The notes beneath the pieces were generated by a model. That model was not told where the DNA came from. It did not search any database and saw only the letters and a program-made list of their open reading frames with translations. A program made the position numbers and the translations under genes. From Enterobacter sp. RHBSTW-00175 (GTDB taxonomy: Bacteria > Pseudomonadota > Gammaproteobacteria > Enterobacterales > Enterobacteriaceae), in contig NZ_CP055930.1 in the NCBI RefSeq assembly GCF_013927005.1, positions 3,782,001 to 3,846,000 of the forward strand: a DNA stretch of 64,000 nucleotides, given 5' to 3'. Shown here one piece after another: positions 4,332 through 16,463 of this stretch (positions are counted from its first letter, which is position 1; every line of letters begins with the position of its first letter).

Positions 4332-4473
4332 ACTCAATTATGGTGGGCTGAACCGGGGCTTCTTTTGAAGCGCCGATTTTCCCGTGTGGGTCGGTACGCC
4401 AAACCGGTTCAGTCTGCCACCTGAGTTGGCGTTCGGGTGGAGATCTCATAATTTCACACGGAGTCATAACCAA
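4332..4473 (+). ncRNA. Structured leader resembling a P4-satellite immunity (CI RNA) region
   Basis: A 9-bp inverted repeat (CTGAACCGG at 4348-4356 with CCGGTTCAG at 4404-4412) encloses most of the leader; a second pair, CGCCAA (4397-4402) with TTGGCG (4426-4431), could form a competing hairpin. The wording of this stretch, with GGTACGCCAA and the GGCGTTCGGGTGG box, recalls leaders upstream of ash/icd-like genes in P4-type satellite prophages. In P4 such leaders yield the CI RNA that controls immunity by premature termination. The family assignment is from memory and was not searched. Confidence 0.4.
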
Positions 4474-6172: not shown

Positions 6173-7156
6173 ATGGCAGTAAACAGCATTACTCCAACTG
6201 ACTTAAAAACCATTCTGCATTCAAAACGTGCCAATATTTATTACCTGGAGAAATGTCGCATCCAGGTAAACGGTGGTCGCGTTGAATATGTTACTCAGGA
6301 AGGTAAAGAATCATTTTACTGGAATATTCCCATCGCCAATACCACAGCCGTCATGCTGGGCATGGGAACCTCCGTAACGCAAATGGCGATGCGGGAGTTT
6401 GCGCGGGCTGGTGTGATGGTTGGCTTTTGTGGAACGGACGGCACGCCGCTCTATTCCGCAAATGAAGTCGATATTGATGCCTCCTGGCTATGCCCGCAAA
6501 GCGAATATCGACCGACGGGATATTTGCAAAACTGGGTCTCATTTTGGTTTAACGAAGATATGCGTTTACAGGCGGCTAAGCATTTTCAGTTTATTCGTTT
6601 AGAGCAGATCGAAAAACAATGGTTAGGGTTGCGAATGCAGCGTGAAACCTCTTTTCAGCCGGATCCCGGGACGCTGAGAAATATCCTTGAACGCGCTCGA
6701 CAGGGTATGGAAAACGCTAACGACCACACCACATTGATGCTCCAGGAAGCACAGCTCACGAAATCGCTCTACAGGCTGGCCAGTCAAACCGTAGGTTACG
6801 GCAGCTTTACCCGGGCTAAACGGGGCGGCGGTGCAGATTCGGCAAATCGTTTTCTCGATCAAGGTAATTATCTGGCCTACGGATTGGCAGCGGTGGCGAC
6901 CTGGGTCACTGGTATCCCTCATGGCCTCGCGGTCATGCATGGTAAAACCCGACGTGGGGGACTGGTCTTTGATATTGCCGATTTAATAAAGGATGCGCTG
7001 GTAATGCCGCAGGCCTTTATCGCCTCGATGGAAGGGGAAGACAATCAACTTTTTCGTCAGCGCTGTATTAGCATCTTTCAGCAAACAGATGCGCTGGACG
7101 TAATGATTTCCACCTTGCAGGACACCTCGCAGACACTGGCGGAAAACGCATCATGA
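6173..7156 (+). CDS. cas1: Cas1, type I-F CRISPR integrase
   Basis: 327 residues, close to the 324 of the Pseudomonas aeruginosa I-F Cas1. Cas1 with the Cas2 part of Cas2-3 captures prespacers and integrates them at the leader end of an array. The metal ligands expected for the active site are present: Glu192, His256 (VMHGKTRRG), Asp267 and Asp270 (FDIADLIKD). The N-terminal block around LKTILHSKRAN and the IPIANTT motif are typical. The start is placed at the ATG giving MAVNS, which aligns with the family N-terminus; ATG at 6158 or TTG at 6041 would add residues the family lacks, though the Shine-Dalgarno sequence is weak for all. The stop overlaps the cas2-3 start (ATGA). Confidence 0.97.
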   Translation: MAVNSITPTDLKTILHSKRANIYYLEKCRIQVNGGRVEYVTQEGKESFYWNIPIANTTAVMLGMGTSVTQMAMREFARAGVMVGFCGTDGTPLYSANEVDIDASWLCPQSEYRPTGYLQNWVSFWFNEDMRLQAAKHFQFIRLEQIEKQWLGLRMQRETSFQPDPGTLRNILERARQGMENANDHTTLMLQEAQLTKSLYRLASQTVGYGSFTRAKRGGGADSANRFLDQGNYLAYGLAAVATWVTGIPHGLAVMHGKTRRGGLVFDIADLIKDALVMPQAFIASMEGEDNQLFRQRCISIFQQTDALDVMISTLQDTSQTLAENAS

Positions 7157-10100
7157 ATGTCCTGCTCATTTCCCGTTGTACAAAAAATGCCCGTGACGAA
7201 AGCTGTCGTCTCATCGACCAGTTTGCTGAACGAACAGGTGATGCGGCCTGGCAGACAACTATCACACTTGATGGCATTACCACCCTCAGAAAACTGCTGC
7301 GCAAGACGGCTCGTCGAAATACCGCGGTTGCCTGTCACTGGCTTAAGAAAAACGGGCAGACAGAGCTGCTGTGGATTGTCGGAAACCTCAGACGTTTCAA
7401 TGCGCAGGGGCGCGTTCCTACCAACCGTACCACTCAGCATGTCCTGAAAAATGGGGCAGAACATCAGTGGAACAGTGCCGAAAGCATCGCATTGTTGGCT
7501 GCCATCGCCGGGCTGTTTCACGATTTTGGTAAAGCCGGGATGAGTTTTCAGCAGACGCTGCGGGGAGAGAGCAAACATTTCAGTCAGCCCTATCGCCACG
7601 AGTGGATTTCGGTTCGATTGTTTCAGGCGTTTGTCGGTGAACAAACGGATGCGCAGTGGCTGGCGTCGCTCGAACACCTTAAAGCCACAGATGAAAAGGG
7701 TATGCTGAAAGCGCTAACGATGGATACGCCCGAAAAGAGCAACAGCCCGTTGCGAGAATTACCGCCGCTGGCAAAGGTGATTGCATGGCTGATGCTGTCG
7801 CACCATCGTTTGCCGCAATCTCACTCTGCACGCCCTCAAATGTTGTATTGCGATGGCTGGCTTGAACGTCAGCTGAATGCAGACTGGAATTCGCTCAACC
7901 ACATATCCACAGAAAAGCATCGCTGGACGGATCGCGACAGAAAAAATGTCTGGAAATTTCCGTATGGTACGCCTCTGAAGAGTCACACGTGGCGTGAGAA
8001 AGCGCGTCAAATTGGTAAACGTATTAGAAACATGCCTGCACTTCTTCATTATGGTGCAATGGATAATCTGTTCACCGTCCATCTTGCACGTTTGTCGCTG
8101 ATGCTGGCAGACCATGTTTACTCATCTCAATCCGCGTTTGTGGGATGGCAGGATGAAGCCGTCCAGACATGGGCCAACAGCGATCATCGGACGCATCTAC
8201 TCAACCAAAAACTTGATGAACACAATGTTGGCGTGGCGCACCTTGCATTGCTGATGGGACGCTCGTTCCCCACGTTACGCCGTACGCTGCCTGCTATTGC
8301 CCGGCATAAAGCCTTTCGGGAACGGGTGAAAAATCCCCGTTTCCACTGGCAGAACCAGGCGTGGGATGTTGCCGTGTCCCTGCGGGAAAAAAGCACTGAA
8401 CGGGGTTTTTTCGGCATTAATATGGCGTCAACCGGGTGCGGTAAAACCTTTGCCAACGCCAGGATCATGTACGGCCTGGCTGACGAGCAGGAAGGATGCC
8501 GGTTTAGCGTGGCGCTGGGATTACGGACGCTGACGCTACAGACTGGGCAGGCTTTGCAATCTCGATTGGGGCTGGATGATGACTCGCTGGCTGTGGTGAC
8601 CGGTGCGGCGGCGGTGAAGGAGTTGTACCAGGATAATGATGAAGAAGATACCGGCAGCGCCAGCGGCGAAGCATTTTTTGCCAGCCATCATTACGTCCAT
8701 TACGAAGGTGCCACCGGGAGCGGCATTGCCCAGCAATGGCTGGCGAAAGAACCGACTCTTAACAGACTGGTTAGCGCGCCAGTTCTGGTTACGACCGTAG
8801 ATCACCTGATGCCAGCCACCGAAGGTATACGCGGTGGTCGGCAGATCCCCGCCATGCTGCGTTTACTCACCAGTGATCTGGTGCTTGATGAGCCAGATGA
8901 TTTTGACATTGATGATTTGCCTGCCCTGTGCCGACTGGTGAACTGGGCGGGTATGCTCGGCTCCCGTGTACTTCTCTCTTCTGCGACATTACCGCCAGCA
9001 TTAACAGAAGCGCTGTTTGAAGCCTATTGGGAAGGTCGAAAAGTCTGGCAGGCTGAATGCGGTCACTCTGACAGGCCACTAAGCATCTGTTGCGCCTGGT
9101 TTGATGAGTATGGCGCGCAGTCGGAAGATGTGGCTGACGAAAATCATTTTCGTGAGGCGCACGGCAGATTTGCGAGCCAGCGCGTTAAGCGCCTGCCAGA
9201 CCAGCCACGGCTCCGATTGGGGAAACTGGCGGCTGTTGAGCCGCAGTCAACCAGCATTGCAGGCGTAATTTCAGCAGTGGCAGAAACCCTGCACCAGCAA
9301 ATGATTGAACTCCATCGCCAGCACCACTCTGCGCATCCCAACGGCAAAACCGTGTCGTTTGGCCTGATTCGTATGGCCAATATCAACCCGCTGGTTGCCG
9401 TCGCACAAGCGCTGATGGCATTACCCTCACCAGAAAACTACCGCATCCATTATTGCATTTATCACAGCCAGCATCCGCTGGCGGTGCGTGCGGCAATTGA
9501 AAAGCGGCTGGATCGCGCTTTTACCCGGCATGAGCCGGAGCAGGTCTGGCAACTGCCGGAAGTGCAGCAGGCGCTGGCCTCGTCGGAGCAGCATCATCTT
9601 TTTGTCGTGCTCGGAACCTCTGTCCTGGAGGTTGGGAGAGATTTTGATGCTGACTGGGGAATTGTCGAACCCAGTTCGATGCGTTCGCTTATTCAGTTTG
9701 CCGGGCGTATTCAACGCCACCGTCAGCAGGTTCCTGAACGTGAAAATCTGGTGATTCTGGCACAGAACATACGCGCGCTTCGGGGGGAAACCGTGGCCTA
9801 TTGTCGACCCGGTTTTGAAACCGAACGCTATATGTTGCCTGGTCACGATCTTCACGACCTGCTCAGCGAAGAGGGGTATCGCGCACTGAATGCAATTCCA
9901 CGCATTGTTGAGGGGGTTGCGGGCAATGCGCTGGCGGCGCTGGAACATACCCGGCTGCGTGCTGCGCTGCTGGAAGACGGAGATAAATCAGAAGCGATAG
10001 CGGCATCCTGGTGGCGGCTTCCCCTGACGTGGAACGGTGAGCTTCAGCAACGTACGCCGTTTCGCCGCACGTCGCCGCAGACCTCGTTTTTTTTGAGTAT

Positions 10101-10383
10101 GGAAGAAGACGACGACATCCCCGAGTTTTGTCTGATGCAGGAAAACGGTGGGTTAAAGCCGGCAGGGGGATTTAGCCTACAAACGCTTTCCACGGCTGAA
10201 GGCGTGGACGCGTGGATTGCAGTTGATTATGCAGAGGTACTCCAGGCACTGGCCGAGACGAAGCATATGGAGTTGACGGCTGTATCACGACGGTATGGTG
10301 AAATTACGTTGAGAGTCGGGAGGGGAGACGAGACAGAGCAGTGGCTGTATCACCCGGTGTTGGGTGTGTTTCGCGCCCCCTGA
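7153..10383 (+). CDS. cas3: Cas2-Cas3 fusion, type I-F adaptation and target-degrading nuclease-helicase
   Basis: 1076 residues, the size typical of I-F Cas2-3. The Cas2-like domain covers about residues 1-95. The HD nuclease domain starts with the His-Asp pair at 123-124 (FHDFGKA). The SF2 helicase has Walker A STGCGKT (426-432), Walker B DEPD (Asp579-Glu580), the SSATLPP motif III and a late QFAGRIQRH motif VI. It joins Cas1 for spacer acquisition and is recruited by the Csy complex to unwind and degrade targets. All key motifs are intact. The stop codon lies in the stem-loop of a GC-rich hairpin (10372-10394), and beyond it starts the mini-CRISPR on the opposite strand. Confidence 0.97.
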   Translation: MNVLLISRCTKNARDESCRLIDQFAERTGDAAWQTTITLDGITTLRKLLRKTARRNTAVACHWLKKNGQTELLWIVGNLRRFNAQGRVPTNRTTQHVLKNGAEHQWNSAESIALLAAIAGLFHDFGKAGMSFQQTLRGESKHFSQPYRHEWISVRLFQAFVGEQTDAQWLASLEHLKATDEKGMLKALTMDTPEKSNSPLRELPPLAKVIAWLMLSHHRLPQSHSARPQMLYCDGWLERQLNADWNSLNHISTEKHRWTDRDRKNVWKFPYGTPLKSHTWREKARQIGKRIRNMPALLHYGAMDNLFTVHLARLSLMLADHVYSSQSAFVGWQDEAVQTWANSDHRTHLLNQKLDEHNVGVAHLALLMGRSFPTLRRTLPAIARHKAFRERVKNPRFHWQNQAWDVAVSLREKSTERGFFGINMASTGCGKTFANARIMYGLADEQEGCRFSVALGLRTLTLQTGQALQSRLGLDDDSLAVVTGAAAVKELYQDNDEEDTGSASGEAFFASHHYVHYEGATGSGIAQQWLAKEPTLNRLVSAPVLVTTVDHLMPATEGIRGGRQIPAMLRLLTSDLVLDEPDDFDIDDLPALCRLVNWAGMLGSRVLLSSATLPPALTEALFEAYWEGRKVWQAECGHSDRPLSICCAWFDEYGAQSEDVADENHFREAHGRFASQRVKRLPDQPRLRLGKLAAVEPQSTSIAGVISAVAETLHQQMIELHRQHHSAHPNGKTVSFGLIRMANINPLVAVAQALMALPSPENYRIHYCIYHSQHPLAVRAAIEKRLDRAFTRHEPEQVWQLPEVQQALASSEQHHLFVVLGTSVLEVGRDFDADWGIVEPSSMRSLIQFAGRIQRHRQQVPERENLVILAQNIRALRGETVAYCRPGFETERYMLPGHDLHDLLSEEGYRALNAIPRIVEGVAGNALAALEHTRLRAALLEDGDKSEAIAASWWRLPLTWNGELQQRTPFRRTSPQTSFFLSMEEDDDIPEFCLMQENGGLKPAGGFSLQTLSTAEGVDAWIAVDYAEVLQALAETKHMELTAVSRRYGEITLRVGRGDETEQWLYHPVLGVFRAP

Positions 10384-10394
10384 AAAAGGGCGCG
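10372..10394. terminator. GC-rich hairpin over the cas2-3 stop codon
   Basis: CGCGCCC (10372-10378) pairs with GGGCGCG (10388-10394), loop of 9 bases containing the TGA. There is no T-run on either side, so it is not a classic terminator. It lies 3' of the last hairpin of the minus-strand mini-CRISPR RNA and could help define the 3' ends of both transcripts. Confidence 0.4.
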
Positions 10395-10464
10395 AGCTGC
10401 TTGTACAGCAGTAATAAATAATAGGGACTTTATATATTTCTAAGCTGTCTAAACGACAGTGAGT
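10389..10464 (-). ncRNA. Degenerate mini-CRISPR: predicted crRNA-like regulatory guide (CreR/CreA-like)
   Basis: Read on the - strand: a degenerate repeat (10464-10437) matching the array repeat at 22 of 28 positions, a 20-nt pseudo-spacer TATATAAAGTCCCTATTATT (10436-10417), and a second degenerate repeat (10416-10389) in which only the hairpin core is kept. The upstream repeat ends in the exact 8-nt I-F handle CTTAGAAA. Its hairpin is CTGTC-GTTTA-GACAG and the downstream one CTGCT-GTACA-AGCAG; each differs from the array hairpin by one base-paired change on both arms, so pairing is kept. Cas6f cutting would release a guide with a 25-nt stretch between handle and 3' hairpin instead of the usual 37. 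CreTA and CreR RNAs of other CRISPR types have this layout; assignment here is inference. Confidence 0.75.
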
Positions 10465-10468
10465 GAAG

Positions 10469-10496
10469 ATTATATTCATTTGTGGGGTTTTGACAA
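10469..10496 (-). promoter_or_regulatory. Minus-strand promoter of the mini-CRISPR
   Basis: On the - strand TTGTCA (10496-10491), a 16-nt spacer, then a perfect TATAAT (10474-10469). The start would fall near 10462, at the first degenerate repeat, so the RNA would begin with the first Cas6f hairpin. The -35 box overlaps that of the divergent csy1 promoter. Confidence 0.6.
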
Positions 10497-10518
10497 GTTA
10501 ATCATCTTTGAATAGTAA
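10490..10518 (+). promoter_or_regulatory. Predicted csy operon promoter
   Basis: A perfect -35 TTGACA (10490-10495), a 17-nt spacer and a weak -10 TAGTAA (10513-10518); TAATAT (10521-10526) is an alternative -10. This is the best sigma-70 candidate in the gap and leaves a leader of about 195 nt before csy1. Confidence 0.5.
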
Positions 10519-10529
10519 CTTAATATAGG
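10508..10529 (-). promoter_or_regulatory. Predicted partial protospacer (with CC PAM) for the mini-CRISPR guide
   Basis: On the - strand CC (10529-10528), the type I-F PAM, is followed by 20 bases (10527-10508) that match the pseudo-spacer at 14 positions. Matching positions from the PAM are 1-5, 7-10 and 13-17; mismatches are 6, 11, 12 and 18-20. In type I effectors every sixth guide base is flipped out and does not pair, so positions 6, 12 and 18 are expected to be tolerated. The site covers the -10 region of the csy1 promoter. Confidence 0.6.
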
Positions 10530-10723
10530 TGTAGATAAGAAAATTGAAATGGGTTAATTTATCATTGGTTTGATAATGGGATTATTTATTACGATGATAA
10601 TTAATAGGTTTTTATTTTTCTCATTTATTGTTTTTGTCTTTTTGTACTCAAAGTATTCATATTGATTATAAATTTGTTTTTTATATTTATATGATTTATT
10701 GATATGGAAAATTAAGGTGATAT
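10530..10723 (+). other. AT-rich csy1 leader with a short hydrophobic ORF
   Basis: The untranslated stretch before csy1 is strongly AT-rich. It contains an ATG-started 29-codon ORF (10576-10665) whose product would be almost wholly Phe, Ile, Leu, Val and Tyr with one Arg and one Lys. T-rich DNA yields such peptides by chance and no good Shine-Dalgarno sequence precedes it, so it is not called as a gene. Weak additional promoter-like boxes (TTGTAC at 10642, TATAAA at 10667) are present. Confidence 0.4.
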
Positions 10724-12034
10724 ATGAGTGAAGGAGCACTGTTCTCATTTATTTCAGCCTATATAGCCGGGCGACGGCAAGCAAAGCTGGAAGCATTTGA
10801 CAAAGGGGCCGCAAAACGTAGCGATGAAGATAGTGCGACGCTTGCGGCTGAACGACGGGAGCTGGAGCGTCGCTATGAACCGAAAGCGTGGCTGACGGAT
10901 GCGGCGAAGCGAGCCTGTCAAATTAACCTCGTGACCCATGCGGCGAAATTTACCCACGGGGATTCAAAAAGCAGCAGTATTTACAGCGAGGCAGCGGCGG
11001 AAGGAGGTTATCTCAGCAGCGCAGCGTTGTCAGGTCTGGAACCGGATGCCGTTGGAAATGCTGCGGCGCTGGATGTGGCAAAAATGCTGCAAATGCGGAT
11101 TGATGGTGGCGATTCTCTACTGGCGAGCCTGAAACGCGGCGATCGCCGTGCTCTGGCCGTTTTTACCAATGATGCTGATCAGTTGAATGAGTGGGTTGAA
11201 GGATTTTCGCAAGCCTTTTCGCCCGGAGTGCCTGTCTCGCACAAGCTTGCTAAACAGGGCTATTTCCCGGTAGGTGACGAGTACCATTTGTTAAGCCCGC
11301 TATTTGCCACTTCGCTCGTTCACGCGGTGCATCAGAAAATGATTGCCCTTCGATTTGGTGATGAAGTTAAAGCTATCTGGAAAGCCCGACGTGAGAAGAC
11401 CTGGCATCCAGGCACGCTAACGTCATTCCCGGATTCAGCAGAAATGCATTTTGGTGGCACTAAACCGCAGAATATTTCTTACCTCAACAGCGTGCGCGGT
11501 GGGCGTATGTGGCTGCTGTCTTGCCAGCCGCCACAGTGGAAAAGAGCAGAGAAACCGCCGACAAATTTACAGTCTATTTTCACATTGGGCGGCCAGTTTG
11601 ATCGGCGTGCGAAAGGCACCGTCAGGCTGCTTGTTTCCTTGTTAAAAAGCGCCGGGGATTACACCAATTTTCGTATTCGCGAAGCGCGTGATGAGTATAT
11701 TGATGCGCTGATCGACCTGCTGTTTGTCGTGGCGTCAGAACTTCAACGAAGCGAGTGGCAGCACTGGACAATTAAATGCCCTCAATTAGCCAGTCATCAA
11801 ATGCTCTGGCTCGATCCCTGGCGCGCAAAAACAGACGAAGCTTTCCGTCTTGAACGTGAAAAAGAAGACTGGCAGGCAAGCGTCGCAACAGATTTTGCCC
11901 TCTGGCTGAACGTTCGTTTGAATAAGGAATTAAAGGACTTTGGGAAAGTAGAGCAACGTGAGTGGGAAACCCGCGAACGCTTACGCTCCAACCTGCGCGA
12001 GATGGAAAAAATCATCCAGGAGGCGCTTATATGA
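10724..12034 (+). CDS. csy1: Csy1 (Cas8f), large subunit of the type I-F surveillance complex
   Basis: 436 residues, close to the 434 of the P. aeruginosa protein. Csy1 pairs with Csy2 at the 5' handle of the crRNA and reads the CC/GG PAM in target DNA. The sequence matches the family along its length, including an N-terminal helix rich in charged residues, the KFTHGDSKSSS stretch, the Gly-rich GGTKPQNISYLNS region that is very conserved in Csy1, and a C-terminal helical part. The start is the ATG behind AAGGTGATAT. It overlaps csy2 by the ATGA arrangement, so translation is likely coupled. A 340-bp gap carrying the mini-CRISPR separates it from cas2-3. Confidence 0.96.
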   Translation: MSEGALFSFISAYIAGRRQAKLEAFDKGAAKRSDEDSATLAAERRELERRYEPKAWLTDAAKRACQINLVTHAAKFTHGDSKSSSIYSEAAAEGGYLSSAALSGLEPDAVGNAAALDVAKMLQMRIDGGDSLLASLKRGDRRALAVFTNDADQLNEWVEGFSQAFSPGVPVSHKLAKQGYFPVGDEYHLLSPLFATSLVHAVHQKMIALRFGDEVKAIWKARREKTWHPGTLTSFPDSAEMHFGGTKPQNISYLNSVRGGRMWLLSCQPPQWKRAEKPPTNLQSIFTLGGQFDRRAKGTVRLLVSLLKSAGDYTNFRIREARDEYIDALIDLLFVVASELQRSEWQHWTIKCPQLASHQMLWLDPWRAKTDEAFRLEREKEDWQASVATDFALWLNVRLNKELKDFGKVEQREWETRERLRSNLREMEKIIQEALI

Positions 12035-12966
12035 GTTCATTGATTCTGCTTCGCCGTATTCGGGTCGAAAACGCTAATGCGATAGCTGGCCTGACGTATG
12101 GTTTTCCTGCTATCACCCATTTTTTGGGTTTTTCCCATGCGCTCTCGCGCAGGTTAACTGAAACCCAGGGGCTGCATATTGACGGATGTGCGGTCATAAG
12201 CCATGAGCAGCAAATTCATGCGCATTCTTCCGGGCGTGATTATCAGTTCGCGCTAACCCGTAATCCCCTGACGCGTGAGGCAAAAACCGCCTCCTTCAAT
12301 GAAGAGGGGCGTATGCATATGACGGTGTCGTTACTGCTCGAATGTCATGGTGAAATCCCAAATGGTGAATATGGGCAGCGTGACCTGGCTGAGTATCTTA
12401 CCCGGGTGTGCCCAACGCTTCGGCTGGCGGGCGGAATAATCGTCGATATCCAGAATATCTCTGTTATGGCAATGCCTGCCAGTAGTCGAGAGATGGCGCG
12501 ATTACAGTGGCAACTGATGCCGGGCTTTGCGCTGCGCGATCGCAGCGGCTGGTTGAATACACATCATCAAACCCTTCTGGAAAATGATCCAAATGCCACA
12601 CTGCTTGACGCCTGGTTCGATTTTTCGGCTTTGAAAACACGGGCTGAGCCGCTCGAACAGGGCGACATTCAAGAAGGTGACGCTGTCCGGTGGCAGTACG
12701 TTCCCAAACCCAACCCCGGTTATCTGGTGCCGCTAATGACGGGTTACCAGCGTATTTCCGAGCTATTTGCCCCGGGCGTGGTAGCGAATGCGCGTGACGC
12801 AGAAACACCTTTCGCGTTTACCGAAGCGGTGTATGGCGTGGGCGAATGGTGTGGGCTGCATCGAATTCAGTCTCTTGACGAGATTTTCTGGCGTTATCGC
12901 ACGACGGAAACGGGCTATTACTGTCAGGGTGCGGGCGCACCGGTGACATCTGAACATCTAATTTAA
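12031..12966 (+). CDS. csy2: Csy2 (Cas5f), type I-F complex subunit
   Basis: 311 residues from the ATG that overlaps the csy1 stop; CAGGAGG lies just before it. An upstream in-frame ATG would add 23 residues not seen in the family. Csy2 forms a heterodimer with Csy1 at the foot of the complex and holds the crRNA handle. Family features visible are the start [26 protein letters not shown], shortened here to its opening [12 protein letters not shown], then [15 protein letters not shown], and the conserved [12 protein letters not shown] near residue 234. It is followed after 13 bp by csy3. Confidence 0.96.
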
Positions 12967-12979
12967 AAAGGACTTCTCT

Positions 12980-13978
12980 ATGGCAAAGGCTCCAACAGCC
13001 GTTAAAACGGCGTCTGTACTGGCATTTGAACGTAAGCTTGCGACCTCGGATGCGGTGATGTATTCCGGAAACTGGGACGGTGACCAGTGGCAGCCCATTC
13101 GCATTCAGGAAAAGGCCGTTCGCGGCACGATTTCGAATCGTTTAAAAAATGCACTCACCAACGATCCGGCGAAACTGGATGCTGAGATCCAGAAAGCCAA
13201 TCTCCAGCGGGTGGATGTGGCTGCATTACCAACAGATGCAGATACCTTAAAGGTTAAATTTACCCTGCGCATTCTGGGAAATCTGTCGATCCCTTCAGTG
13301 TGTAATGACCGGGCCTATCAGGATGAGCTTCAGCAGGTCATCGACGGTTATATCAGTGAACAGGGTTTTACCGAACTGGCACGCCGTTATGCCACCAACC
13401 TGGCGAATGGCCGTTTTTTATGGCGTAACCGTGTTGGCGCCGAAAAAATTGTTGTGAAGGTTACAGGCAGTCAGTCGTGGGTGTTTGACGCTTACGATTA
13501 TGCATTGCGCGATTTTTCCTCCAGCGATAACAATCTCAATGCACTGACTCAGGAAATCGAAAAAGGGCTTAGCGGCGAAGGATTTGTTTTATTGAATGTA
13601 GAAGCGCAGGTCCTTCTCGGCGAGGGTCAGGAGATCTTCCCGTCTCAGGAGCTGGTGTTGGACAGTAATAGCAGCAAAAGCCGCCTGTTGTATCAGGTGG
13701 AGGGGGTTGCCGGTATGCACTCACAGAAAATCGGCAACGCGCTGCGCACCATAGACACCTGGCATCCTAATGCTGATGAATTGGGGGCCATTGCGGTAGA
13801 ACCCTATGGTTCCGTTACCAGCCGCGGCGTGGCGTGCCGGCAGCCAAAGGAGAAAATGGACTTCTACACGTTGCTTGATAACTGGGTAACGAAAGGTCAA
13901 AAGCCAGATGTTGAACAGCAGCATTATGTGATGGCTGTACTGATTCGTGGCGGTGTCTTCGGTGAGAAGGGCGAGTAA
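12980..13978 (+). CDS. csy3: Csy3 (Cas7f), backbone subunit of the type I-F complex
   Basis: 332 residues; the P. aeruginosa Csy3 has 342. Six copies normally wrap the crRNA spacer and form the backbone, each kinking out one guide base per six. The N-terminus with [20 protein letters not shown] and the [14 protein letters not shown] stretch are family hallmarks. A good Shine-Dalgarno sequence (AAAAGGA) precedes the ATG. Because the number of Csy3 copies follows guide length, the short pseudo-spacer of the mini-CRISPR would load fewer copies; that is inference. Confidence 0.97.
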
Positions 13979-13987
13979 GGAGTCGAT

Positions 13988-14542
13988 ATGGATCACTACT
14001 TTCAGATCCGCGTGCTGCCAGATCCAGAGTTCAGCGAGGAGATGCTAATGGCTGCGCTGGTGGCGAAGCTGCATCGTGCGCTGGGACAAAGAGGGCTGGG
14101 CGATATTGGCATTAGCTTCCCTGCACACGACATTAAGCCTGGTGCAGTTTTACGTCTGCACGGGCATAGCCAGGCGTTACGTGAACTCGAGTTACTGGCA
14201 TGGCGAAAAGGATTGGGTGACTACAGTTTGTCATCGGAAATCAAACCTGTTCCTGACGTCAACCAATGGCGATGTGTGAGTCGTGTTCAGGTTAAAAGCA
14301 ACGCGCAGAGGCTTATGCGACGTTCAGTGAATAAAGGATGGATGACTGAACAGGAGGCTCAGCAACGCATACTGACGATGCAAGACGTGAAGACAGATTT
14401 GCCCTGGCTTCAGTTGCGTAGCCTCTCTACTGGTCAGTCGTTCAGGCTCTTTATCCAGCATGGTGATTTATGCTCTACGCCTGTTGCAGGGACGTTCTCA
14501 ACTTATGGGCTAAGTTCTACCGCAACGGTTCCCTGGTTCTGA
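13988..14542 (+). CDS. cas6f: Cas6f (Csy4), crRNA-processing endoribonuclease
   Basis: 184 residues; the P. aeruginosa enzyme has 187. It cuts the repeat just 3' of its hairpin, leaving the 8-nt CTTAGAAA handle, and stays bound to the 3' stem-loop as part of the complex. The catalytic His29 is present (AKLHRAL), as is the serine of RSLSTGQ (Ser147). The RNA-groove helix, rich in Arg, is at about residues 99-116 (SRVQVKSN then RLMRR). The C-terminus ends in VPWF, as in the family. It is the last gene of the csy operon and is followed at once by a terminator. Confidence 0.97.
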   Translation: MDHYFQIRVLPDPEFSEEMLMAALVAKLHRALGQRGLGDIGISFPAHDIKPGAVLRLHGHSQALRELELLAWRKGLGDYSLSSEIKPVPDVNQWRCVSRVQVKSNAQRLMRRSVNKGWMTEQEAQQRILTMQDVKTDLPWLQLRSLSTGQSFRLFIQHGDLCSTPVAGTFSTYGLSSTATVPWF

Positions 14543-14550
14543 GACTTTAG

Positions 14551-14580
14551 CCGCATCCGCTTTCAGGGTGCGGTTTTTTC
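14551..14580 (+). terminator. csy operon terminator
   Basis: CCGCATCC/GGGTGCGG hairpin (one T-G wobble) followed by TTTTTT, 8 bases after the cas6f stop. The stop codon of the convergent toxin gene lies in its loop. Confidence 0.9.
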
Positions 14581-15036
14581 TGCCAGACGGTTATCGAAAA
14601 TGAAAGGCAGTGGCTGAACTGTGTTCAGTGTTTCGCGGAATGCAGGATGTAACGGATTAAGTATGGCATTGTTTTCATAAGGGATAATGCAGGATGGCAG
14701 GATAAGTGCGAGGGCTCCGTTAGCCTGTAACCAACCGGTGCCCAGATCCATTGTTGATACAGGTGCCGGATTTTCCTGCCAGTCTTCGGGTAGCCAGGCC
14801 TTATCGAGATAATCAATCTGTTCATCCGGGATTTCAATACTGAAAAGCTGATACTGATTGAGCACTGTGCCTTCTTTAACGTGCACCAGGATTTCCAGAG
14901 ATGCCAGTGAGATGGAGGTAGACACATAGACTGCCGGATGCCCTTTATGATTCCAGCGTCCGCCATACTGGTTTGCGCCAATTCCACTCCACGCTTCACT
15001 GGCATAACGTCCCGTCACCAGCCGGTAAAAAATCAT
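14563..15036 (-). CDS. RES-domain toxin (MbcT/ParT/Res family)
   Basis: 157 residues. RES toxins fold like ADP-ribosyltransferases and either break down NAD+ or ADP-ribosylate host enzymes such as phosphoribosyl pyrophosphate synthetase. The RES signature is visible: Arg27 in YGGRWN, Tyr37 in AVYVS, and Glu48 in SLASLEILVH. The start is the ATG that overlaps the antitoxin stop codon (ATGA); a longer reading frame upstream is just antitoxin DNA in another frame. It is convergent with cas6f. The gene pair lies between the csy operon and array 2. NAD+ cleavage versus ADP-ribosylation cannot be told from sequence. Confidence 0.9.
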   Translation of the reverse strand: MIFYRLVTGRYASEAWSGIGANQYGGRWNHKGHPAVYVSTSISLASLEILVHVKEGTVLNQYQLFSIEIPDEQIDYLDKAWLPEDWQENPAPVSTMDLGTGWLQANGALALILPSCIIPYENNAILNPLHPAFRETLNTVQPLPFIFDNRLAEKTAP

Positions 15037-15476
15037 GCAAACACTCCATGTTCCAGACGACCAAGTAAATCGGTAACTTCCAGCGCACCGGTTTCGGTTG
15101 CAATCAGATCGACGGGGGCGACATTGCCAAGCCCGCGCACCGGTGATTGCAGCCAGTTCCATGCCTCATCTTTAGTGCCAAAATAATCGACGGCAGCGTC
15201 CAGCACGCGAACGAAACGCGCTACGCGTTCGCTTTCGTCAGGTGTTAGCGTCCGGCCAGCACTTTTACGCCGTGCGACATTGCGCTCATTAATCCCGGTT
15301 ACACGTAAAATGTCTGCCTTTGACATCTCAGTCCATTCATGGATGTTGTCGAGCACGCTGACGGGTAATCCCTGATTGAGGTATTCGACCAGCCGCATGC
15401 CCCGGTTAGCAGGTAAACCTGCAAACCGCCAAAGGGCGTCATCAGCCGGTTTCTGCGCGGGGATCCAGGTTCTCAT
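15033..15476 (-). CDS. Xre/MbcA/ParS-family antitoxin
   Basis: 147 residues, the first gene of the toxin-antitoxin operon. The N-terminal half looks like an Xre-type helix-turn-helix (about residues 50-75, including MSKADILRVTGINERNVARRK). The C-terminal half is the DUF2384/MbcA domain that covers the RES toxin active site, ending in the characteristic Ala-Phe-Trp-type pattern of AWNWLQSP and a Leu/Gly-rich tail. The ATG follows AGGAGGG. A direct repeat overlapping its promoter is a likely autoregulatory operator. These pairs are widespread on plasmids and in islands. Confidence 0.88.
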   Translation of the reverse strand: MRTWIPAQKPADDALWRFAGLPANRGMRLVEYLNQGLPVSVLDNIHEWTEMSKADILRVTGINERNVARRKSAGRTLTPDESERVARFVRVLDAAVDYFGTKDEAWNWLQSPVRGLGNVAPVDLIATETGALEVTDLLGRLEHGVFA

Positions 15477-15714: not shown

Positions 15715-16463
15715 GTTCACTGCCGTACAGGCAGCTTAGAAATACACCCGAAAGCAACCACGCCGCAGGATGCCGTTCACTGCCGTACAGGCAGCTTAGA
15801 AATTACGAACGGCAGAGGGAAGGGTGAAGAAATCGTTCACTGCCGTACAGGCAGCTTAGAAATTGCTGATATGTCAAATCAGCACGAACACAACGTTCAC
15901 TGCCGTACAGGCAGCTTAGAAAACAACAAGCCAACCGGGTGGCCCTCAACGGTCGTTCACTGCCGTACAGGCAGCTTAGAAACCAGTTGATCGCGTTATC
16001 GCTGTACAAGATGAGTTCACTGCCGTACAGGCAGCTTAGAAAAAATGTATTGCGGAAACGTGGGTTAAGCCTATGTTCACTGCCGTACAGGCAGCTTAGA
16101 AAAAATCCACGCTTGGGAACGATAACGACCTGATGTTCACTGCCGTACAGGCAGCTTAGAAAATGAACTATTCGAAATTCCTCCAGACCTGGCAGTTCAC
16201 TGCCGTACAGGCAGCTTAGAAAATATGATGAAAGTACTGGTTACGCTTCTTTGCCGTTCACTGCCGTACAGGCAGCTTAGAAACCCGCCGCTCAGCTGTG
16301 ACGGATAGGCATTCTGTTCACTGCCGTACAGGCAGCTTAGAAAAGAGCTACGGTTAAACATAGAACGCTGGATGTGTTCACTGCCGTACAGGCAGCTTAG
16401 AAAATTGCGAGAATAGCTCCATTGGGAATTACCCTGTTCACTGCCGTACAGGCAGTCCCAAAA
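15715..16463 (+). CRISPR. Type I-F CRISPR array 2 (13 repeats, 12 spacers)
   Basis: Same 28-bp repeat as array 1. Starts are at 15715 and every 60 bp to 16195, then 16256, 16316, 16376 and 16436. Spacer 9 (16223-16255) is 33 bp, the others 32. The last repeat keeps its first 20 bases (the hairpin) and then diverges, so this is the trailer end and the array reads on the + strand. It has its own leader. Spacer 8 (starting ATGAACTATTCG) and spacer 9 (containing ATGATGAAAGTA) look like starts of coding sequences. Spacer sources are unknown. Confidence 0.99.

Follow-up and report, generated by a model that had tools for sequence, protein, structure and literature searches.

In the original definition of CreTA (type VIII), the toxin is an RNA. 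The type I peptides of the Ibs/Hok kind are short, hydrophobic, probably single-span and restrained by RNA. An I-F1 mini-array that serves as a guide in regulation has reportedly been presented by Shmakov et al. (2023, NAR) in their paper on CRISPR-derived regulatory elements. The archaeal CreTA toxin is described as a tRNA-sequestering RNA (PMC8501985, PMC9458426). Among type I-F systems, a CreTA has been characterised in the cas3-csy1 gap of Acinetobacter (PMC10097628), with two degenerate repeats, a 20-nt pseudo-spacer (psiS), a CC PAM and a short ORF lying downstream and divergent from creA. As described there, psiS matches its target at all 20 positions except 6, 11 and 18, and CreT acts as an RNA with a 33-bp ORF. 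The toxin of the type I-E CreTA of Citrobacter rodentium (96-bp ORF) is reported to require translation (PMC12055562); that module lies in the cas3-casA gap, with creA on the opposite strand and a PAM-flanked target at the promoter. CreR mini-CRISPRs, according to their descriptions, encode a guide that partly matches a promoter beside a cas gene and have no toxin gene (PMC12737573, PMC12948488). In CrePA (Shu et al., Nat Chem Biol, as reported in PMC12737573), a CreA-like RNA represses a protein toxin, CreP, which typically has a KilA-N domain and is freed by anti-CRISPRs.

The window analysed here is a 64,000-nt stretch of DNA from Enterobacter sp. RHBSTW-00175. Its gene order cas1f-cas3f-gap-csy1-csy2-csy3-cas6f is that of a type I-F operon, every gene scoring above its NCBIfam cut-off. 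The operon is placed after clpA, with one CRISPR-DR4 repeat array (Rfam) on each side, built of 28-nt repeats spaced 60 nt. The cas2-3/csy1 gap measures 340 bp. Judging from the sequence, the minus-strand mini-CRISPR at 10389-10464 in this gap is probably a guide gene of the creA type. Its RNA, after a predicted cut by Cas6f, would direct the Csy complex to a partial match flanked by CC and in this way repress a short gene for a predicted membrane-peptide toxin (creT) ahead of csy1. The features are the following:

7153..10383, plus strand: cas2-3 (Cas3f)
10389..10416, minus strand: psiR2 of creA, 17/28 against the array repeat, handle lost
10397-10411, minus strand: psiR2 stem-loop CTGCTGTACAAGCAG, hairpin core kept
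10417..10436, minus strand: psiS, pseudo-spacer of 20 nt, TATATAAAGTCCCTATTATT
10437..10464, minus strand: psiR1 of creA, 22/28 against the array repeat, reading ACTCACTGTCGTTTAGACAGCTTAGAAA
10437-10444, minus strand: psiR1 handle, exact CTTAGAAA
10445-10459, minus strand: psiR1 stem-loop
10469..10496, minus strand: predicted creA promoter, TTGTCA (10491-10496), 16 nt, TATAAT (10469-10474)
10508..10529, minus strand: predicted guide target, PAM CC (10528-10529) and protospacer TATATTAAGTTACTATTCAA (10508-10527)
10532..10560, plus strand: possible creT promoter, TAGATA, 17 nt, TAATTT; weak, its position given by analogy with relatives
10576..10665, plus strand: candidate creT ORF of 29 codons, MGLFITMIINRFLFFSFIVFVFLYSKYSY, or of 23 codons with the ATG at 10594 as start
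10724..12034, plus strand: csy1, the nearest gene past the module
11962..14542, plus strand: csy2, csy3 and cas6f

This layout is shared with the Acinetobacter module in the gap that it occupies, the two degenerate repeats outside the arrays, the 20-nt psiS, the CC PAM and the short plus-strand ORF downstream of the target, divergent from the minus-strand creA. The Citrobacter rodentium module has the equivalent gap, the opposite-strand creA, the PAM-flanked target at a promoter (a possible one in the window) and, if the candidate creT acts as a peptide, a toxin in need of translation in common with the window, and differs in its type I-E effector and its ATG PAM. The guide that partly matches a promoter beside a cas gene is also a trait of CreR, from which the window is set apart by a predicted peptide gene between target and csy1.

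The mini-CRISPR agrees with the original prediction: two degenerate minus-strand repeats surround the pseudo-spacer, the upstream copy has the exact handle and a paired hairpin, and the downstream copy is reduced to the hairpin core. The stems are CTGTC/GACAG and CTGCT/AGCAG, compared with CTGCC/GGCAG in the array. One C-G pair has thus been replaced by T-A in each copy, at a different position in psiR1 and psiR2, a compensated change that had also been foreseen, as had the likeness of the downstream loss to the array ends, where the last repeat copies of both arrays are also without the handle. Outside the arrays, psiR1 is the top match to the array repeat in the window, ahead of a runner-up of 19/28; in 20 mononucleotide shuffles of the window, the top matches ranged from 17 to 20 of 28. 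Both stem-loops are present in the predicted fold of the mini-CRISPR. Rfam, at its gathering threshold, lists the array repeats and neither psiR1 nor psiR2. Across the modules of other loci described below, 8/12 distinct psiR1 stems are fully paired, with recurring stem changes.

The creA transcript is predicted to run leftward from about 10462. Its putative promoter holds 11 of the 12 consensus bases and would place the transcription start at the psiR1 edge. As a match to the consensus only, it is no more than suggestive: promoter-like sites in this region number 2, with 2.1 expected by shuffling, and the creA promoter scores over all modules barely exceed those of shuffles (8.5 vs 7.8).

The target, the predicted creA promoter and the small ORF were absent from the original prediction. 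On the same strand as creA and 43 bp beyond psiR1, the target reads 5'-CC-TATATTAAGTTACTATT. It pairs with psiS at positions 1-5, 7-10 and 13-17, which makes 14 of the first 17 bases, with mismatches at 6, 11 and 12; the match is partial, as in Acinetobacter. By chance, 14/17 together with CC was reached in 9/20000 shuffles of psiS and in 2/5000 dinucleotide shuffles of the gap.

Because the gap of the window, used as query in a DNA similarity search, gave no match in E. coli, relatives were reached through Csy1. The Csy1 searches gave 14/61 genus genomes, 60/392 sampled from the family and 60/394 sampled from the order, the samples overlapping. Among named loci, 80 were kept of 154 confirmed Csy1 matches. 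For the family, 50 of 61 placed matches were examined (30 loci and 20 fetched), the 11 most distant being left out, and for the order the best 30 matches. In total, 167 loci were examined, 147 of them distinct by their csy1 segment; L063, which duplicates L052, was left out. The detector was run on gaps of at least 180 nt, a module being defined as a mini-CRISPR and a target that both lie on the minus strand, the target being flanked by CC and matched at 11/17 or more.

A module was found in the cas3-csy1 gap of 47/147 distinct loci, one of them being the published control. Fewer than 60 nt separate cas3 and csy1 in 59/147 loci and 60-179 nt in 16/147, and the remaining 25/147 are unclear, have no module or are exceptions to the definition. 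The 47 modules comprise 39 distinct psiS/target pairs and eight loci duplicating the pair of another strain (L093, L100, L114, L130, L140, L146, L147, L160). They include the Acinetobacter LoGeW2-3 CreTA, the positive control, which was recovered by the same detector (L167, 14/17), and E. coli S88 (L168), which was added by hand. Named genera with a module include Enterobacter, Citrobacter, Escherichia, Leclercia, Cedecea, Pectobacterium and Brenneria, as well as Dickeya, Erwinia, Serratia, Yersinia, Rahnella and Photorhabdus. Within the genus of the window, 4/14 csy1 loci have a module (L001, L004, L006, L013), 9/14 have a gap of 15-25 nt, and the one left, L011, has a gap of 67 nt. Identical psiS and target are found in L004 and in Enterobacter cloacae DSM 26481 (L088). 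Several loci stand outside the 47. L025 and L110, which share a psiS, have the mini-CRISPR, the 14/17 target of L025 being on the other strand; L058, L131, L144 and L148 have repeats and no target of at least 11/17 in the detector; and L111 has a module with an altered handle (12/17) that was missed. In L131 (Mixta tenebrionis), the second stem starts only 14 nt after the handle, and on visual inspection psiS fits a CC-flanked site in the gap with its first 9 nt, the detector having chosen otherwise.

Across the modules, psiS and target change together. Among the 39 distinct ones, a gap is matched at 13.9/17 by its own psiS and at 8.2/17 by a swapped one, and the own psiS ranked first in 35/39. 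The numbers of modules matching at positions 1 to 10 are 39, 39, 39, 39, 38, 13, 39, 35, 38 and 37, and at positions 11 to 20 they are 38, 9, 33, 30, 23, 27, 25, 14, 18 and 12. Positions 6 and 12 are thus matched in 28% of cases and the rest of positions 1-17 in 89%. Over 29 representatives clustered by psiS, 40/58 cells at positions 6 and 12 are mismatched, a number reached in 0/20000 permutations. A base flipped every six nucleotides is the hallmark of the Cas7 backbone. The mismatches at 6 and 12 therefore indicate a guide of a Csy-type effector and not plain antisense pairing, which would show none.

The distance from the handle to the second stem points in the same direction. The offsets from handle to psiR2 stem show a period of 6 nt (29 representatives; Rayleigh R 0.57, p 8e-5), periods of 5 and 7 nt giving R 0.44 and 0.36, and the distances cluster near 19, 25, 30 and 35, in steps of about 6 nt. 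The longer offsets are 1-2 nt short of a 6N rule, the ladder lying near the prediction L = 6N-4. In the type I-F work described in PMC7296934, spacer length equals 6N - 4 for N Cas7f subunits. The 20-nt psiS of the window, 6x4-4, fits N = 4 Csy3 subunits, and over the modules the guide lengths look as if tuned to whole Csy3 subunits.

A Cas6f-cut, crRNA-like guide, borne by Csy and aimed at its own locus, had been put forward in the original prediction. It is well supported by sequence, through the CC-flanked target 43 bp away, the 39 modules with one published control among them, and complementarity of the effector type. The novelty then suggested for such a guide in type I-F is not supported, since the Acinetobacter CreTA already occupies the same gap (PMC10097628) and an I-F1 regulatory mini-array has reportedly been presented by Shmakov et al. 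(2023). What the guide controls had been left open; the evidence points to the small peptide gene.

The candidate creT ORF sits between the target and csy1, pointing away from creA. A hydrophobic ORF was defined as 19-80 codons between target and csy1 with a mean hydropathy of at least 2.2 over 13 residues. Such an ORF is found in 28/33 modules of the long-gap class, control excluded, compared with 2.0 expected from dinucleotide shuffles; the window (196 nt) belongs to this class. The peptides vary greatly in length and sequence among lineages. Eleven longer ones can be aligned, with a hydrophobic stretch, K-P in 9/11 and an S-I-F-S/T-like end. Amino-acid change is below that of a neutral simulation over five pairs (Fisher p 9e-4), which speaks for a peptide rather than an RNA as toxin, and dN/dS is 0.20-0.39 in 9 pairs, which are partly non-independent. 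For the only close pair of the window, L001/L004, the corresponding p is 0.44, and the ORF stretch is 62/90 identical, hardly more alike than its flanks (30/46 and 27/44). The hydrophobicity of the ORF is matched by 7.5% of shuffles in the window, 2% in L004, 0% in L006 and 2.5% in L015. The ORF of the window is not individually significant, and the case for it therefore comes from the family to which it belongs.

Of the peptides found, 8 were scanned with Pfam and 6 with NCBIfam, and none was assigned to a family, the lone Pfam row (E 0.13, 12.9 bits) being below its cut-off of 27. With long-form peptides as queries, the relatives in the protein database are hypothetical, uncharacterised or unnamed (2 and 17). 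In its shortness, hydrophobicity and restraint by an RNA, the candidate creT resembles the Ibs/Hok peptides, from which it differs by a predicted control through a Csy-guided block of the DNA and by predicted creA and creT transcripts that diverge without overlap. By comparison with the Acinetobacter CreT as described, the ORF of the window is longer, hydrophobic and, at family level, conserved as a protein, and it is a short hydrophobic peptide where CreP, in its description, typically has a KilA-N domain.

The signals for the creT promoter are less clear. In the window, the promoter scan favoured a different weak site over 10532..10560, and the sigma-70 scan around the targets is hardly above shuffles (8.6 vs 8.3). 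Only the positions of the -35 box cluster, the best box lying 0-3 nt past the GG of the target in 17/38 modules. A complex bound at a target adjoining the -35 box would sit at the promoter, that of the window itself being weak.

The main rival to the CreTA reading is CreR-type autorepression, in which the guide would repress a promoter serving csy1-csy4 and the small ORF would be untranslated or a mere leader. Such a class seems to exist in type I-F: in five short-gap loci (L064, L065, L068, L077, L153), the target is located 73-80 nt before csy1 and is followed by no hydrophobic ORF, and these are probably cases of CreR-type autorepression. Mini-arrays are said by Shmakov et al. (2023) often to match cas8 promoters, one I-F1 case having reportedly been tested. 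The terminator scan of the window's gap gave no G+C-rich terminator between the ORF and csy1, and a looser test, applied to eight loci, yielded weak hairpins, an A+T one of -5.5 kcal/mol in the window; csy1 may share the promoter, though the ORF intervenes between it and the target. The modules nevertheless fall into two classes, and the window is in the long-gap, ORF-bearing one and not in the CreR-like one. The excess of hydrophobic ORFs in that class and the amino-acid conservation over five pairs also argue against a mere leader, and a csy promoter of its own would hardly fit in the 59/147 loci with fewer than 60 nt between cas3 and csy1. We therefore regard autorepression alone as unlikely for the window, though it deserves the most attention among the alternatives.

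A decayed CreTA or array relic, no longer working in this genome, is a good deal less probable. Apparent relics are known, such as L011, whose 67-nt gap still holds part of psiR2, and L126, with only a toxin-like C-terminus; the mismatches of the window at 6, 11 and 12 and its weak creT promoter could be taken in the same sense. Against decay, the exact handle, the paired stem changes, the CC PAM, the 11/12 creA promoter and the open ORF occur together within 340 bp. A stray mini-array, or a decoy of the phage Racr kind that would titrate Cas proteins or inhibit them, is very improbable: solitary repeats are described as marking Racrs too (PMC10651486), yet a decoy needs no target, whereas psiS co-varies with a PAM-flanked site in 39 modules, and the locus lies inside the cas operon. 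Three known kinds of element were also compared and rejected. A Racr is a solitary repeat in a viral genome, whereas here two repeats with a target lie in a chromosomal cas operon. An ordinary CRISPR array has near-identical repeats and 32-nt spacers, compared with copies of 22/28 and 17/28 and a 20-nt spacer. A type I toxin-antitoxin with an antisense RNA does not fit a predicted creA transcript going leftward from ~10462 and an ORF going rightward from 10576, without overlap.

According to the CreTA reading, the products of csy2, csy3 and cas6f would process and carry the creA guide. Cas6f would cut the creA RNA, the Csy complex would be carried to the partial match, and at this site it would block creT. 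The 20-nt psiS would hold four Csy3 subunits, and the complex may bind the DNA without calling Cas2-3 to cut, because shortened I-F1 spacers are described as behaving in this way, with DNA bound and Cas2-3 not triggered (PMC7296934). Loss of csy, or an anti-CRISPR disabling Csy, would then release creT and stop the cell. As no G+C-rich terminator was found ahead of csy1, the release of creT might also raise csy expression.

A broader proposal is offered tentatively, as one that could well prove wrong: enterobacterial I-F loci, E. coli included, would bear widespread CRISPR-guarded membrane-peptide toxins, with a six-base-tuned creA guide and a shrunken Csy that binds and does not cut holding down one promoter for the peptide and the csy genes. 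Csy loss or an anti-CRISPR would at once poison the cell and order more Csy. As far as the searches show, three things are new: this family of peptides without annotation, the range of loci over which it is spread, and the six-base signature. No peptide toxin under I-F control is among the literature matches listed, subscription papers and preprints being mostly outside that search. If the proposal is true, toxic peptides without annotation guard many I-F loci in Enterobacterales and would be released in experiments using deletion, CRISPR interference or anti-CRISPRs; odd phenotypes of csy mutants could be explained, and there would be a bearing on how native I-F systems are used. The six-base mismatch and length signatures would offer a general route to regulatory guides, separating them from relics.

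With the S88 gap as query, an S88-type gap was found in 237/5426 complete E. coli genomes. In S88, csy2 has a stop at codon 72, and the gap is identical to that of LF82 (L172), where csy2 is open. Since the gap is unchanged beside a stopped csy2, this strain has not been made to lose the toxin by the loss of csy, so that addiction is not seen in it, and the comparison of S88 with LF82 shows no link between a broken csy and a broken creT in E. coli. The S88-type ORF, which may be inactive, is unlike those of other Escherichia in its second half. No csy gene is marked broken in eight further E. coli loci, LF82 among them. Over the 76 named loci with enough downstream DNA, the csy genes are whole in 23/24 loci with a detected module and in 48/52 without, which gives no contrast; L111, L131 and L144 were placed in the group without a module. 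The sole module locus scored as not whole, L105, is two codons under the 280-codon cut.

Some minor observations concern neighbouring elements and relatives. By eye, the toxin-like C-terminus upstream of csy1 in Photorhabdus asymbiotica (L126) is accompanied by no mini-CRISPR, and this gap is likely a remnant. A C4 antisense RNA, a regulator RNA of phage type, is found between clpA and array 1 of the window (Rfam, 66.9 bits; 4336-4424, plus strand). Array 2 contains one 33-nt spacer within 16195-16283 (repeat starts 16195 and 16256), its other steps being 60. Between cas6f and array 2, at 14563-15162 on the minus strand, lies the RES-domain toxin of a RES/Xre toxin-antitoxin pair (NF049844). 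Embedded systems under CRISPR supervision are described under the name CRISIS in a preprint (PMC12409349), and the RES/Xre pair is conceivable as an accessory system supervised in this way.
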